DNA from: Arcicella sp.
GTDB lineage: Bacteria; Bacteroidota; Bacteroidia; Cytophagales; Spirosomataceae
Reading direction: 5' to 3'
Assembly (NCBI GenBank): GCA_025354645.1
Contig: JANXML010000239.1
Coordinates: 1 to 41,202 of the forward strand
Length of the DNA: 41,202 nucleotides
Shown here: one piece after another, positions 8,607 to 40,958 of the stretch
Numbering within the stretch: position 1 is the stretch's first letter
How the letters are laid out: every line of letters starts with the position of its first letter
Program-made: the position numbers and the translations under genes
The notes under the pieces: model-generated
The model's input: the letters and a program-made list of their open reading frames with translations, nothing else
What the model was told of the DNA's origin: nothing
Database searches by the model: none

Positions 8607-9485
8607 ATGGCAAGAACAGATTCAAGAAGTCTTTTAGAGAAATTTACTGATATTGCAACAATTGTATCAGCGTTTGGTATTGTCGTTGCTTTCGTTCAAA
8701 TGTGTAGTCAAAATAAGCAGTTCAATGATTCTTTTGAACTTTCAAATAAACAGTTCCAATATCAATTAAAACAAGACTCACTACAAGAAAAAGCCGATTC
8801 CGTTAAAGATTATCGTGATTCTGTGAAGCTACAATTAACCATTAACGAATTTGAGAGAAATAAGCAGAATCAGGAAATAGAAGGCAAAAGAAATGAATCC
8901 CAGTTTGAAAAAAATATTACAACACTTCAAGAACTTGTAAAGGCTAACAGAGAGAGTAATGAGTATGTTGTGAAATCTCAAAGACCATATTTAGGGGTTG
9001 AGTTTAAGTCAATTTCAGTAGTTAATGATTCAATTATCCTTTTTGAAATCCATTTTACTAATCTCGGAATTAGAAGACCTTTTTTAAAAAGAATGACTCA
9101 TATTTTCATTAACGATAGAATAAACTCTTTTCATTCAATAACAAGCAATTATAAGGGAACTCCAATTGGAAATGATAACACGAATTTCACAATAGAGGAC
9201 TATAAGTACATTGGACTTTTGACAGAGAAAGAAAAAAATAAAGTCACCGTAAATTTTGTACTTGATATTGGTTATTTAGATGAATTGACAAATACTACTT
9301 TTGAGCAAAGATTTCATTATAAAATATCCAATTTGAAGCCTTTTTCTCTGGGAAATATAAATGAATCTACTTTAATAGAAAAACAAAACTTAGATCAATT
9401 TATTAAAAGCAAGAGAGATATAATTTTCAAAAAAAATACCAAAAATCTTACCCCAAATAACAAACCAAAAAATGCAAAAAATTAA
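8607..9485 (+). CDS. Hypothetical membrane-anchored coiled-coil protein
   Basis: I do not recognise this 292-residue protein. It has one hydrophobic segment near residues 16-34 (IATIVSAFGIVVAFVQM), then a long charged stretch rich in Q, K, E and S (about 38-120) that should form a coiled coil, and a globular C-terminal part starting at SQRPYLGVEF (about 124). The layout of an N-terminal anchor, a coil and an RPYLGV-type beta domain occurs in many bacterial proteins of unknown function. It starts 15 bases after the end of the zeta remnant and overlaps the next dehydrogenase gene by 14 bases. Its asparagine- and lysine-rich tail may be a degenerate end. Confidence 0.6.
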   Translation: MARTDSRSLLEKFTDIATIVSAFGIVVAFVQMCSQNKQFNDSFELSNKQFQYQLKQDSLQEKADSVKDYRDSVKLQLTINEFERNKQNQEIEGKRNESQFEKNITTLQELVKANRESNEYVVKSQRPYLGVEFKSISVVNDSIILFEIHFTNLGIRRPFLKRMTHIFINDRINSFHSITSNYKGTPIGNDNTNFTIEDYKYIGLLTEKEKNKVTVNFVLDIGYLDELTNTTFEQRFHYKISNLKPFSLGNINESTLIEKQNLDQFIKSKRDIIFKKNTKNLTPNNKPKNAKN

Positions 9486-10617
9486 AGTAGGTGTCGTAGG
9501 CACAGGGTTTATTGGACCCGCTCATATCGAAGCGTTGCGTCGTCTTCCTAATGTGGAAGTGGTGGCTCTTTGTGAAGTAAATATTGAATTGGCAACCGCC
9601 AAAGCCGCTCAGTTGGGCATCGAACGTCCTTGTACGTTTGAACAATTATTGGCGATGGAAGACGTTGTTTGTGTGCATATCTGTACGCCAAATTTTTTGC
9701 ATTATTCACAGTCAAAAGCGGCTCTGTTGGCTGGAAAGCACGTAGTTTGTGAAAAACCTCTTGCAAAAGATTTGCACGAAGCGGAGGAATTAGTACAAAT
9801 TGCCAAAGAAACGGGCTTGGTAAATGCTGTGCATTTCAACCTCAGATATTACCCATTGGTTCGCCAAATGAAAACCATGCGTGAGAAAGGTGATTTGGGA
9901 GAAGTTTACTCAATCATCGGCTCGTATTTGCAAGATTGGTTATTCTACAATACCGATTACAACTGGCGACTTGAACCCGACAAATCAGGCGATTCTCGTG
10001 CTATTGCCGACATTGGTTCGCATTTAATGGACGTAATCGAGTACATCACAGGTTTGAGAACTGTGGAAGTAATGGCTGATTTCAACACGATTCACAAGAC
10101 TCGTAAAAAGCCTTTGAAGCCCGTGGAGACGTATTCGGGCAAGATGTTGCAACCCGAAGATTATGCTGATGTACCCATCAATACGGAAGATACCGCCAAC
10201 GTTTTGTTACGTTTTGACAACGGAAACAAAGGTTTGGTAACGGTTTCACAAGTTTCGGCAGGACGTAAAAATCAGTTGAGATTAGAGATTTCGGGGTCAA
10301 ACAAAACCTTTGCTTTCAACTCAGAAGCTCCCAACGAAATCTGGATTGGAAATCGTGATGGCTACAACCAATCCCTCATGCGTGACCCATCATTGGCATA
10401 CCCAGAAGCGGGTGCATTAATGTCGTTCCCAGGTGGACATAATGAAGGTTTCCCTGATACATCAAAGCAGCTTTTCAGAGAGGTCTATGCAGCCGTAGCC
10501 GCAGGGAAAATGCCAGAAAACGCTCCATTCCCAACATTTGCAGACGGTTATCGTGAATTATTGATTTGTGAGAGGATTTTGGATTCGCACAGAAGTCAGT
10601 CTTGGGTAAAGGTTTAA
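9472..10617 (+). CDS. Gfo/Idh/MocA family oxidoreductase
   Basis: The 381-residue cytoplasmic dehydrogenase carries the N-terminal Rossmann motif GVVGTGFIGPAHIEAL (residues about 7-22), the CEKPLAKD motif near 97 that positions the catalytic lysine, and DIGSHLMDVIEYI near 182 with the catalytic His. The C-terminal half is the typical alpha/beta domain. Such enzymes oxidise or reduce sugars, inositols or 3-keto glycosides with NAD(P). The next metabolic gene, a TIM-barrel isomerase at 11346, is a usual partner in sugar or cyclitol catabolism, and the two probably formed one operon before the S23 gene and its repeats came between them. The start at 9472 overlaps the upstream gene by 14 bases. 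Confidence 0.9.
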   Translation: MQKIKVGVVGTGFIGPAHIEALRRLPNVEVVALCEVNIELATAKAAQLGIERPCTFEQLLAMEDVVCVHICTPNFLHYSQSKAALLAGKHVVCEKPLAKDLHEAEELVQIAKETGLVNAVHFNLRYYPLVRQMKTMREKGDLGEVYSIIGSYLQDWLFYNTDYNWRLEPDKSGDSRAIADIGSHLMDVIEYITGLRTVEVMADFNTIHKTRKKPLKPVETYSGKMLQPEDYADVPINTEDTANVLLRFDNGNKGLVTVSQVSAGRKNQLRLEISGSNKTFAFNSEAPNEIWIGNRDGYNQSLMRDPSLAYPEAGALMSFPGGHNEGFPDTSKQLFREVYAAVAAGKMPENAPFPTFADGYRELLICERILDSHRSQSWVKV

Positions 10618-10620
10618 GTA

Positions 10621-10690
10621 GTTGTGATTTGTGATTGAGTGAGTTGTGATTTTTTCAGTTGTGAGTGTTTCAAGTTGTGATTTGTGATTG
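10621..10690. repeat. GTTGTGATTTGTGATT repeats, inverted relative to those before the S23 gene
   Basis: GTTGTGATTTGTGATTG occurs at 10621-10637 and 10674-10690, with shorter GTTGTGA words between. These are the reverse complement of the AATCACAAATCACAAC words at 10796-10871, so the 250-base gap can fold into alternative stems. The gap codes for nothing I can see. Confidence 0.8.
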
Positions 10691-10795
10691 GGTTAGTTGT
10701 GATTTATTACTCATAATTACCTTAATTCTTTGATAAGTTGAGTGAAATAGATACCCAAAAACTACAAATTACAACCAGAATAATCTACCAATAGA

Positions 10796-10882
10796 AAATC
10801 ACAAATCACAACTGATTACACTCACAATTCACTAAATCACAAATCACAACCGATTACACTCACAATTCACTAAATCACAACT
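10796..10882. repeat. Two 38-bp tandem repeats plus a partial third
   Basis: Units at 10796-10833 and 10834-10871 are identical except for one T/C difference; each begins AAATCACAAATCACAAC and ends CTCACAATTCACT. A partial third unit starts at 10872 and runs almost up to the S23 start codon at 10887. Related words recur just after the gene at 11304-11340. Confidence 0.85.
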
Positions 10883-10886
10883 AATT

Positions 10887-11273
10887 ATGGAGCGGCTTTC
10901 ACAAGAAGAATTTGCAGAGAAAATGTATCAGCGAATAAAGTCTTTTGGATTGAGGTGTATTCCAGTATGTGATATTTTATTTGAAAAAACTCCCTCTGCC
11001 AAAAACATTGGAGGACAACTTGTTCGTTCATCTGCATCAACAGTAGCGAATTATCGTGCTGTTAGAAGGGCAAGAAGTAATAAAGAGTTTTTTGCAAAAT
11101 TGAGTATTGTAGTAGAAGAATTAGACGAAAGTGTGTTTTGGTTAGAATATTCCATTGATGCTAATTTTATTCAAAAAGTAAAACTAAAAACTCTGATTGA
11201 AGAAGGGTATGAACTATTAAAGATTTTAGCAAAATCAAGAAAAACAGCAGGAGATGCACTCCAAAAGAAATAG
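10887..11273 (+). CDS. Four-helix bundle protein (S23 / 23S rRNA intervening-sequence family)
   Basis: The 128-residue basic, helical product matches the TIGR02436/S23 family: EKMYQRIKSFGLR at the N-terminus, GGQLVRSSASTVANYRAVRRARSNKEF in the middle and an ELDESVFWLEY helix. Members were first found inside 23S rRNA intervening sequences of Leptospira and Coxiella and resemble the Avd accessory protein of diversity-generating retroelements; five subunits form a barrel with a positive surface that may bind nucleic acid. Here the gene is free-standing, sits between two sugar-metabolism genes and is bracketed by short repeats. No reverse transcriptase or variable-repeat pair is visible nearby, so it is not a retroelement part in this window. 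Its job is unknown. Confidence 0.85.
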   Translation: MERLSQEEFAEKMYQRIKSFGLRCIPVCDILFEKTPSAKNIGGQLVRSSASTVANYRAVRRARSNKEFFAKLSIVVEELDESVFWLEYSIDANFIQKVKLKTLIEEGYELLKILAKSRKTAGDALQKK

Positions 11274-11303
11274 TAAAATTTAGGATATTATCATTGTTGA
11301 GAA

Positions 11304-11340
11304 AAATCACAAATCACTAAATCACAACTCACAAATAAAC
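11304..11340. repeat. Downstream copies of ATCACAA words after the S23 gene
   Basis: AAATCACAAATCACTAAATC followed by ACAACTCACAAAT repeats the vocabulary of the 38-bp units upstream of the S23 gene in the same orientation, so the gene is flanked by direct copies. The block ends 6 bases before the next start codon at 11346. Confidence 0.75.
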
Positions 11341-11345
11341 AAGAC

Positions 11346-12398
11346 ATGAAAACAATAAAAGGACCCGCTATATTTTTAGCCCAATTTATGGATGACCACG
11401 CCCCCTACAATTCCCTTGATTCTATCACGGATTGGGTGGCGGGCTTAGGTTACAAAGGTGTTCAAATCCCAACGTGGGATGCTCGTGCCATCGACCTTGA
11501 AAAAGCGGCAACTTCCAAAACTTATTGTGATGAACTCACGGGAAAATTGGCAGATAAAGGCTTGCAAATCACCGAGTTATCTACGCACCTTCAAGGGCAA
11601 TTAGTAGCGGTAAATCCTGCCTACGATGCGGGTTTTGATGGTTTTGCTCCTGATTCGGTAAAAGGAAATCCAAAGGCACGTACTGAATGGGCAGTTCAAC
11701 AATTGAAGTGGGCTGCACAGGCTTCTAAGAATTTGGGTTTGAAATCTCACGCTACTTTTTCGGGTTCGTTGCTTTGGCACACCATGTATCCTTGGCCCCA
11801 ACGTCCTGCTGGATTGGTGGACATGGGCTTCACGGAATTAGCTAATCGCTGGTTGCCAATCTTGAATCATTTTGACGAATGTGGCGTGGATGTATGTTAT
11901 GAAATCCATCCAGGCGAAGACCTGCACGATGGCGTTACGTATGAGATGTTTTTGGAGAAAGTAAACAATCACGCCCGTGCTTGTTTATTGTATGACCCAT
12001 CCCATTTTGTATTGCAATGCCTTGATTATCTGCAATATATAGATTTTTATCACGAAAGAATTAGAGCTTTCCACGTAAAAGATGCCGAGTTTAATCCTAC
12101 TGGAAAACAAGGGGTTTATGGTGGTTATCAATCGTGGGTAAACCGTGCGGGACGCTTCCGTTCTTTGGGTGATGGTCAGGTAGATTTTGCTTCAATTTTC
12201 TCTAAATTAACGCAATACGGTTTCGATGGTTGGGCAGTTTTAGAATGGGAATGTGCCTTGAAAGATCCCGTTCAAGGAGCCGAGGAAGGAGCACCATTTA
12301 TTGATTCGCACATTATTCAGGCAACGTCAAAAATATTTGATGATTTTGCGGGTGGTGGAGCTGATTTGGAATTGAATAAGCGGATTTTGGGAATTTAG
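11346..12398 (+). CDS. Sugar phosphate isomerase/epimerase (xylose isomerase-like TIM barrel)
   Basis: The 350-residue product is an AP-endonuclease-2 type TIM barrel as in IolE/IolI and hydroxypyruvate isomerases. The N-terminal strand reads GPAIFLAQFM, and putative metal ligands appear in order: E in CYEIHPGE (near residue 189), D and H in YDPSHF (near 217), H in AFHVKDAEF (near 240) and E in VLEWECAL (near 301). It would isomerise or epimerise a keto-sugar or inositol derivative in the cytoplasm. It lies downstream of the Gfo/Idh dehydrogenase at 9472 and probably acts on its product. The stop is followed by a convergent inverted repeat. Confidence 0.85.
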   Translation: MKTIKGPAIFLAQFMDDHAPYNSLDSITDWVAGLGYKGVQIPTWDARAIDLEKAATSKTYCDELTGKLADKGLQITELSTHLQGQLVAVNPAYDAGFDGFAPDSVKGNPKARTEWAVQQLKWAAQASKNLGLKSHATFSGSLLWHTMYPWPQRPAGLVDMGFTELANRWLPILNHFDECGVDVCYEIHPGEDLHDGVTYEMFLEKVNNHARACLLYDPSHFVLQCLDYLQYIDFYHERIRAFHVKDAEFNPTGKQGVYGGYQSWVNRAGRFRSLGDGQVDFASIFSKLTQYGFDGWAVLEWECALKDPVQGAEEGAPFIDSHIIQATSKIFDDFAGGGADLELNKRILGI

Positions 12399-32849: not shown

Positions 32850-32858
32850 AGTTTAGGG

Positions 32859-32920
32859 ACTTGGGATTAGGTAATTGGGGACTGGGTAGTTTCCTAATCC
32901 CTAATTACCTAATCCCAAGT
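32859..32920. repeat. 22-bp inverted repeat upstream of the hydrolase
   Basis: ACTTGGGATTAGGTAATTGGGG (22 bases, 32859-32880) pairs with CCCTAATTACCTAATCCCAAGT (32899-32920) with one mismatch; the word CTAATC recurs in the spacer and right after. The second arm ends 20 bases before the start codon at 32940. Confidence 0.85.
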
Positions 32921-32939
32921 TACCTAATCACCAAAACCA

Positions 32940-40670: not shown

Positions 40671-40785
40671 CAGTGAACAGTAAACAGTGAGCAGTGAACA
40701 GTGAACAGTAATCAGTAATCAGATTTATTCTGACAACTGATAATTGATAACTCGTAACTGATAACTGATGACTGATAATTGATTT
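40671..40785. repeat. Short tandem words AGTGAACAGT and AACTGATAATTG
   Basis: 40671-40722 repeats CAGTGAACAG, CAGTAAACAG, CAGTAATCAG and similar; 40735-40784 repeats ACTGATAATTGATAACT-like words. The two families are low-complexity and non-coding. The first begins exactly where the riboswitch aptamer breaks off. Confidence 0.8.
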
Positions 40786-40864
40786 ACGGAAATATAAACC
40801 AATTACGATTCAATTCCAGTCTTTTTACTGTTAATTATTCGTCAGGTTTATGGTATGGAATATA

Positions 40865-40944
40865 CTTGAACATTGAAAATTGTTTATTGAACATTGAAAA
40901 TTCAGAAGCGATTAATTCTCAATGTTCAACACTCAATGTTCAAG
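40865..40944. repeat. Paired TTGAACATTGA direct and inverted repeats
   Basis: TTGAACATTGAAAATT occurs twice (from 40866 and 40887) and TCAATGTTCAA twice in opposite orientation (near 40919-40930 and 40933-40943). They form a stem 15 bases ahead of the BstA-like start codon and may affect its expression. Confidence 0.7.
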
Positions 40945-40958
40945 TAAAAAATAGCCAA

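Follow-up and report, generated by a model that had tools for sequence, protein, structure and literature searches.

An S23 gene in the loop of inverted word arrays between protein-coding genes: a probable insertion unit resembling rRNA intervening sequences

An S23 gene among inverted word arrays

What is a gene of the S23 (23S_rRNA_IVP) family doing in a nest of short repeats between two protein-coding genes of Arcicella sp.? The locus lies in a stretch of 41,202 nucleotides (the window; contig C362 of a draft genome of 5.36 Mb and 392 contigs), in which the two host genes and the S23 gene are all on one strand (Table 1). The Gfo/Idh and TIM-barrel families of the hosts point to a sugar operon. 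An earlier note on this DNA had proposed a repeat-associated mobile unit that moves without a visible transposase. The answer that we favor, with moderate confidence, is that the window holds a copy of a widespread insertion unit, similar to the intervening sequences (IVSs) of rRNA, which carries S23 in the loop of an inverted repeat and occupies protein-coding operons.

TABLE 1 Features of the window (positions along the 41,202-nucleotide stretch)
Feature	Position	Strand	Basis or remark
Whole unit	10618..11345		All DNA from the Gfo/Idh stop codon to the TIM-barrel start codon
Upstream host gene, Gfo/Idh/MocA oxidoreductase	9472..10617	+	ORF list and family match
5' arm, G-rich and C-poor, TTGTGATT-type words	10620..10706		Word positions, inverted-repeat search
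Internal C-rich array, 38-bp tandem unit, 2.2 copies, 97% match	10796..10880		Inverse complement of the 5' arm
S23 / 23S_rRNA_IVP gene, four-helix bundle, 128 aa	10887..11273	+	PF05635, TIGR02436, AlphaFold2, Foldseek
3' C-rich arm, inverse complement of the 5' arm	11304..11336		Repeat search, word positions
Downstream host gene, AP_endonuc_2 / xylose-isomerase-like TIM barrel	11346..12398	+	ORF list and family match
S23-less word hairpin, GATTAGG-type then CCTAATC-type	32853..32935		Words like the S23 flanks of L003, same genome, by eye
S23-less word hairpin, CAGTGAA-type then CTGATAA-type	40671..40783		Words like the S23 flanks of L005, same genome, by eye

The repeats had been described as 38-bp units to the left of the gene, inverted words, and ATCACAA words to the right, and word positions together with a repeat search proved this description accurate. 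The words around the gene form TTGTGATT / AATCACAA arrays; on its left, GTTGTGATTTGTGATT occurs at 10621 and 10674 and its reverse complement at 10797 and 10835. The 38-bp units do run almost to the start codon, stopping 6 bases short of the ATG. On the right, ATCACAA words lie at 11306 and 11321; the note had called them direct, which is correct relative to the internal array, but relative to the 5' array they are inverted. The order is therefore G-rich arm, C-rich arm, S23, and C-rich arm, so that a full hairpin precedes the gene and one additional arm follows it. Each arm is an array of one C-poor word of 7 to 8 bases, and the tandem periods found by TRF in the window (7, 15, and 38) fit degenerate intergenic words of ca. 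7 bases. The inverted arms at 10619-10654 and 11302-11337 comprise 36 nt with 89% complementarity. Predicted duplex energies were -76.3 kcal/mol for 10618-10710 with 10790-10886 and -37.5 kcal/mol for 10618-10710 with 11295-11345, and a terminal complementary stem of the IVS type is present as judged by sequence and prediction. Apart from S23, the unit contained no ORF of at least 90 aa; we found no transposase or recombinase between the repeats, no Y1 (RAYT) transposase between the arms, where the gene is S23, and no reverse transcriptase gene within the unit.

Fold of the S23 protein and resident enzymes

The window protein matched PF05635 with 39.1 bits (cut-off 33.8) and TIGR02436 with 62.3 bits (cut-off 24). 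Its AlphaFold2 model consists of four long helices (mean pLDDT, 97), and the top Foldseek matches, 2rld (TMq 0.74-0.79, E 1.8e-4 to 3.1e-3) and 2gsc, both belong to the S23 family. S23 had also been said to relate to Avd, and PF05635 has been noted for its resemblance to Avd (PMC10053308, excerpt). The four-helix fold is indeed shared, with TM-scores of about 0.55-0.70, but the relation goes no further in the model comparison: since the E-values of Avd chains are all >0.2 (4dwl_D, TMq 0.64, E 0.27; 8ub7_E, TMq 0.70, E 0.39) and these chains rank behind unrelated four-helix pectin methylesterase inhibitors (1x8z_A, E 0.055), the predicted likeness appears to be one of fold only.

This likeness, with the E-values just given, is nonetheless one of the points in favor of an explanation in which the unit is mobilized in trans by a resident enzyme, either a Y1/RAYT transposase or a reverse transcriptase that has S23 as its partner, in the way that diversity-generating retroelements use Avd. 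The other is that Y1_Tnp was found in 15 of the 16 S23-rich genomes of the phylum. We consider this explanation quite unlikely. As RVT_1 is absent from 11 of the same 16 genomes, and a single-contig genome with nine S23 matches (G036) has neither RVT_1 nor Y1_Tnp, neither enzyme seems to be required; nor does the window unit itself contain either gene.

The same arrangement in the genome and the genus

The earlier note had suggested looking for the S23-plus-repeat unit at other sites, and it recurs in the genome, in the genus, and in many phyla. There are six S23 genes in the window genome, two of them with an in-frame TAA, and all six are flanked by inverted arrays of degenerate words. By reading, the words are GATTAGG, CAGTTAT, AATTAAG, GTAATTGG, GATTTAGG, and, in the window, the TTGTGATT type. 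As an arm score we used the local alignment of the 250 bases on the left of a locus with the reverse-complemented 250 bases on its right. A cut-off of 18 was set after the six own-genome loci had been read by eye, and one of 16 was added later, the 95th percentile of controls being 15. The six loci scored 16, 18, 19, 20, 22, and 32, the window locus having 20, while among control ORFs, which were taken from the window plus four 20-kb stretches chosen at random, 1/98 reached at least 18 and 3/98 at least 16; none of 31 short control ORFs scored 18 or more.

S23 was found in all eight genomes of the genus, with 1-13 matches each (two split genes counted twice) and 49 loci in total. Scores of at least 18 were obtained for 40 of these loci (Fisher p 4e-26 against control ORFs) and of at least 16 for 43, compared with at least 18 in 5 of 150 draws when flanks were mismatched across genus loci. 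The G-rich arm was the 5' arm in 40/41 loci (arms of at least 16, with 200-base flanks), a rule that applies to both strands because the arms are inverted repeats.

Two loci of this set had additional features. L048 (G007:C171:2460-8489) contains a tandem trio of S23 genes at intervals of 1.3-1.5 kb, and each of the three is flanked by arms of its own (scores 20, 21, and 20). At L003, the right arm (ca. 1897-1940) was seen by eye to continue beyond the ATG into the next gene as the peptide repeat NQSLI SQSLI, which suggests an in-frame N-terminal addition to a putative response regulator.

Inverted arms around S23 genes across bacteria

In the phylum, TIGR02436 matched 223 of 296 genomes, with 0 to 15 matches per genome and 73 genomes without any. 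Among 30 phylum S23 loci sampled, arms scored at least 18 in 12 and at least 16 in 15, the best lag was 7 or 8 in 23, and the G-rich arm came first in 14 of the 15 armed loci. Plasmids gave 33 matching records, 12 of which were scored; 10 of these reached at least 22 and the other two had 12 and 15, while the arms of three more loci (L199-L201) were read by eye only. S23 genes were sought in phages as well, and tblastn with one S23 query (E 1e-5) found none in 50,697 records.

A wider scan of contigs with a consensus S23 protein gave 507 confirmed matches, of which the best 80 were taken. Their titles cover Bacteroidetes, relatives of Planctomycetes, several proteobacterial classes, Omnitrophota, Atribacterota, CPR groups, Chloroflexota, Clostridia, Acidobacteria, Cyanobacteria, and others. 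In these best 80 loci, arms scored at least 18 in 59 and at least 16 in 63; the corresponding figures were 3/151 and 8/151 for neighboring ORFs, and 18/400 and 24/400 for mismatched flank pairs. In the 63 armed loci, the G-rich arm was first in 57 and the best lag was 7, 8, or 14 in 59. The predicted duplex of 150-nt flanks had z < -3 against shuffles at 23/49 genus loci and 32/78 wide-scan loci (from the best 80 of 507), compared with 3/60 mismatched flank pairs.

Taking all sets together, including the best 80 of 507, 131 of 171 S23 loci had an arm score of at least 16, a count of loci that are not independent (190 pairs among the scored loci are at orthologous sites). Arms are not universal: the other 40 scored below 16, some of them as low as 7-9 (L022, L025, L039, L081, and L112) or 6 (L179, whose right flank has only 24 bases). 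The words of the arms contain 9.5% C, and AG occurs at 1.45 times its expectation. We conclude that the arrangement of arms plus S23 is real and general.

If each S23 protein recognized its own word, similar proteins should come with similar words. Word type and S23 type were hardly linked, with a rho of 0.046 that was reached by 36 of 300 permutations (10683 non-orthologous pairs from the 148 of 171 loci with a score of at least 14). Within the genus alone, rho was 0.11. The mean word similarity climbed only above 55% identity. Word-specific recognition by S23 is thus unsupported, and since the two types are nearly unlinked, S23, if it acts on the arms, probably reads their form instead of a single word. 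Strict concerted evolution of the arms in close orthologues was also considered, with mixed results; the same arm of an orthologue was often closer than the arm's own partner. The pattern was clearer in the wider family set treated below.

Filled, empty, and S23-less sites

In Nostoc edaphicum, the unit lies between nrdB and nrdA, genes that occur without it in Calothrix NIES-4105, and the alignment of the two breaks at the arms. Three Nostoc plasmid sites (C2, C1, and A) could be compared among the records fetched. At site C2, four records lacked the unit and two contained it, with an identical S23 protein accession; in these two, the unit is preceded by GGTTCTA and followed by GATTCTA or GATTCTG, and the empty records read GGTTCTAG in L102 and GATTCTAG or GATTTTAG in the others. 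Site C1 was filled in one record and empty in five. Here a TAATG stop/start overlap is kept in three of the empty records and stands at the left junction of the filled one, with ATG again at the right junction. Site A was filled in two records and empty in two, and one further derivative at this site (L195) has the arms without the S23 gene. Only one of the sites had a clear duplication of its flanks (GGTTCTA/GATTCTA); another had a repeated ATG. Arms and S23 together are one discrete insert, and mobility of the class is well supported, as judged from presence and absence and not from observed movement.

Some S23 units were located within CRISPR-cas operons, twice between cas6 and cas4 and once between cas10 and cmr3 (L101, L099, and L199). 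The two cas6-cas4 copies have arm scores of 37 and 28, and arms were recognized by eye in the cas10-cmr3 copy. Two candidate pairs of filled and empty sites in these operons were set aside. PCC 7002 has cas10-cmr3 without the S23 gene, but the flanks of this pair (L199 versus L202) are too divergent to locate a junction. In the cas6-cas4 pair (L101 versus L191; 98.9% identical in the aligned parts), L191 is not empty but holds another palindromic repeat, GTAGGTTGGGTTGACGC..., where L101 holds the S23 unit. These findings suggest that S23 genes inside operons (cas, nrd, suf, and tra) would more probably be passengers there than functional partners.

History of the window site

To follow the window site through its relatives, we used the TIM protein, which was matched in 57/61 genomes, and took the best 30 of 58 matches together with three congeneric loci (L060-L062). 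Gfo/Idh was upstream in 27 of these 33 loci and absent in 6. Two further congeners, G003 and G004, have other genes upstream of TIM. Within the 27 gaps examined, 14 contained S23 with arm scores from 15 to 29, 6 measured only 7-39 bp (four genera), 1 was 85 bp long with a hairpin, and 1 (L300) held other DNA. The remaining five (L060, L061, L062, L290, and L292) contained a DUF433/DUF5615 pair, Pfam-checked in four, the fifth (L062) being nearly the same sequence as L060. Three states occur in one genus, g142, in which three species have S23 (L291), a 25-bp gap (L288), and the DUF pair (L290).

Divergence of S23 tracked that of TIM over the family loci with S23 (rho 0.61). The two arms of a locus change together across this family: the match of own arms was 310, against 224 +- 17 after permutation, a value reached in 0/20000 permutations (relatedness ignored), and the own arm was best or tied in 8 of the 14 S23-filled loci. 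From the gap contents, this correlation, and the own-arm match, we conclude that the window copy is old and vertically inherited, and that it has been lost or replaced several times while its arms were kept complementary. The empty sites that the earlier note had proposed to look for between these genes do exist in relatives, as the six short gaps, but over half of the examined gaps are filled with S23. Its mobile-unit reading likewise stands for the class, given the recurrence at unrelated sites in many phyla, the filled and empty site versions, and S23 as sole ORF of at least 90 aa between the hosts; it does not stand as a recent arrival at the window site, where S23 fills 14/27 of the gaps examined and follows the TIM gene.

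The same observations lend weight to another view, that the unit has been domesticated as a regulatory cassette and is kept by vertical descent, its arm stem controlling or insulating the expression of an S23 with a cellular job and mobility being rare and incidental. Presence in 14 of the 27 examined loci (from the best 30 of 58 plus L060-L062), the correlation with TIM, and the co-changing arms all fit such a cassette, and many S23 sites are common to several species of the genus. We nevertheless find it rather unlikely, as copy numbers are sporadic (1-13 in 8 congeners, 0 to 15 in the 296 phylum genomes), related plasmids have filled and empty sites, and within a single genus (g142) the window site may contain S23, a different gene pair, or no more than a 25-bp gap.

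Side observations were made on two of the gap types. A hairpin was seen by eye before the DUF433/DUF5615 pair in the Gfo/Idh-TIM gap, and a pair of this type is annotated ca. 1.4 kb from S23 in Nostoc edaphicum pNe_5; the pair may be a second insertion unit favoring the same sites. The 25-bp gap of L288, TAATCGCTTAATCACTCAATAAGAC, resembles a remnant of the 3' arm and is perhaps the footprint of a loss.

Word arrays without S23

Random stretches of phylum genomes were searched with a strict scan for arrays of lag 7 or 8. Nine S23-bearing genomes yielded 32 regular arrays over 702 kb, whereas eight S23-free genomes, two of which are of one genus, yielded 2 over 720 kb (binomial p 2e-8, which takes the arrays as independent although some are close together, e.g., in L264). 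Four within-genus contrasts of similar lengths gave S23-bearing to S23-free ratios of 4:0, 6:2, 8:0, and 1:0. Arrays with the control lags 5/6 and 9/10 were also commoner in the S23-bearing set, but less so (20 versus 8).

Including those of the window and of four stretches from its genus, 41 of 42 arrays had no S23 within 500 bp. The strict scan misses many S23 arms, the window's own included, and found one array near any of the six S23 genes present, which indicates that the arms of S23 and free-standing arrays are not equally regular. Few free arrays had an inverted partner within 400 bp: the 15 arrays of the S23-rich stretches gave 3 such sites, and the 8 of the window and genus gave another 3. 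Besides the two S23-less hairpins of the window (Table 1), another inverted pair, of TTGAACATTGAAAATT-type words, adjoins the second of them at 40862-40945. The concern that the repeats might be found equally without S23 was therefore half justified, in that nearly all arrays lie away from the gene, but they are far rarer in genomes that lack it. Most free arrays would, we infer, derive from S23 units.

Slippage during replication, together with template switching at hairpins between genes, could instead give rise to the arrays, S23 simply surviving or collecting in such places. The 41 of 42 arrays without S23 fit this, as do the arms of a locus being more alike than those of its relatives in the family set and the attribution of bacterial heptamers to polymerase slippage (PMC4692102 and PMC4679880, excerpts). 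Yet arms of at least 16 surround 131/171 S23 loci (including the best 80 of 507) against 3/98 and 8/151 other ORFs, arrays are rare in S23-free genomes even within four genera, and arrays and gene are jointly missing at empty sites, though one site has arms without the gene. We regard this explanation as very unlikely.

A model for the unit

The insertion unit that we favor would enter at gene junctions, sometimes at a stop/start overlap. Once transcribed, its arms would base pair to form a long stem whose loop contains the S23 ORF, and the stem would be cut by RNase III, as in rRNA IVSs. The S23 RNA would thereby be excised, so that the host operon could tolerate the insert. S23 might act on the stem or on the excised RNA and so help the unit to spread, and loss of its gene would leave S23-less word arrays, which would be the heptamer repeats of many bacteria. 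Excision from mRNA, with RNase III acting outside rRNA by analogy, S23 as mobility factor, the mobility enzyme, and the way in which arms are homogenized are the presumptive parts of this scheme.

A more far-reaching version is possible, and we offer it tentatively: S23 may mark a very broad class of mobile units that have no transposase, and rRNA IVSs would be those few members that happened to enter rRNA genes. An S23 multimer, RNase III, and the stem would then make up a new RNA-based form of DNA movement, with heptamers as decayed or nonautonomous copies.

Such a class joins three puzzles, namely, the role of the S23/IVP protein, the spread of rRNA intervening sequences, and the origin of bacterial heptamer repeats, and makes all three testable. 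As the same gene-plus-arms unit recurs in very different bacteria, the results suggest that a little-understood rRNA insert is a widespread mobile element of ordinary genes and a source of unexplained bacterial heptamer repeats. In the open-licence literature, including excerpts of PMC8700078 and PMC5524665 and with subscription journals mostly outside, no link was found between S23 genes outside rRNA and inverted heptamer arms.

Comparison with known systems

Inverted repeats dispersed both with and without a gene are familiar from REPtrons/RAYTs and MITEs. The window unit differs from them in having no transposase gene and in arms that are word arrays with a different word in each copy. The Avd protein of diversity-generating retroelements shares the four-helix fold of S23, but those elements carry a reverse transcriptase partner and the window unit has none inside.

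Degenerate intergenic 7-mers like those described here are known in Nostoc (GGGGA(T/C)T), Xanthomonas (GGGAATC), and Beggiatoaceae (TAACTGA) and have been attributed to polymerase slippage (PMC4692102 and PMC4679880, excerpts); the term "four helix" has 0 occurrences in either paper, so that under this name neither of them connects the repeats with S23 genes. Another comparable structure is P6b of the Nostoc trnL group I intron, a stem of 7-base motifs (TDNGATT or NNTGAGT) of unknown origin (PMC4476775, excerpt). It has no S23 gene, and kinship to S23 units is only a suggestion.

ORFs of the 23S_rRNA_IVP family also occur at scattered sites in CPR rRNA insertions and cas loci and have been read as rRNA insertions or as having possible CRISPR-associated functions (PMC11270868 and PMC3936711, excerpts), with 18 genes of the S23 family in cas loci (PMC3936711, excerpt).

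The closest counterpart is the IVS of 23S rRNA, in which, as in the window unit, an ORF of the S23 family is looped out between terminal inverted repeats. In Coxiella, tandem heptamers (GACAGAT) precede S23p in an IVS with a 28-bp stem, RNase III cuts at the start of the first repeat, and the authors suggest that S23p is not made (PMC4990558, excerpt). Our own set contains one rRNA copy, in Azospirillum lipoferum, whose S23 (L104) lies within the 23S gene (Rfam LSU match at 1268-4466 of L104) between inverted arms with a score of 26. Heptamer repeats in the stem region are thus common to the Coxiella IVS, the Azospirillum rRNA copy, and the window class. The window copy lies between two protein genes, outside any rRNA gene, and an Rfam scan of 40 of the best 80 of 507 loci found no rRNA match around S23. 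What sets the window class apart from rRNA IVSs is its place between protein-coding genes, its many copies, each with a different word, and its S23-less forms.
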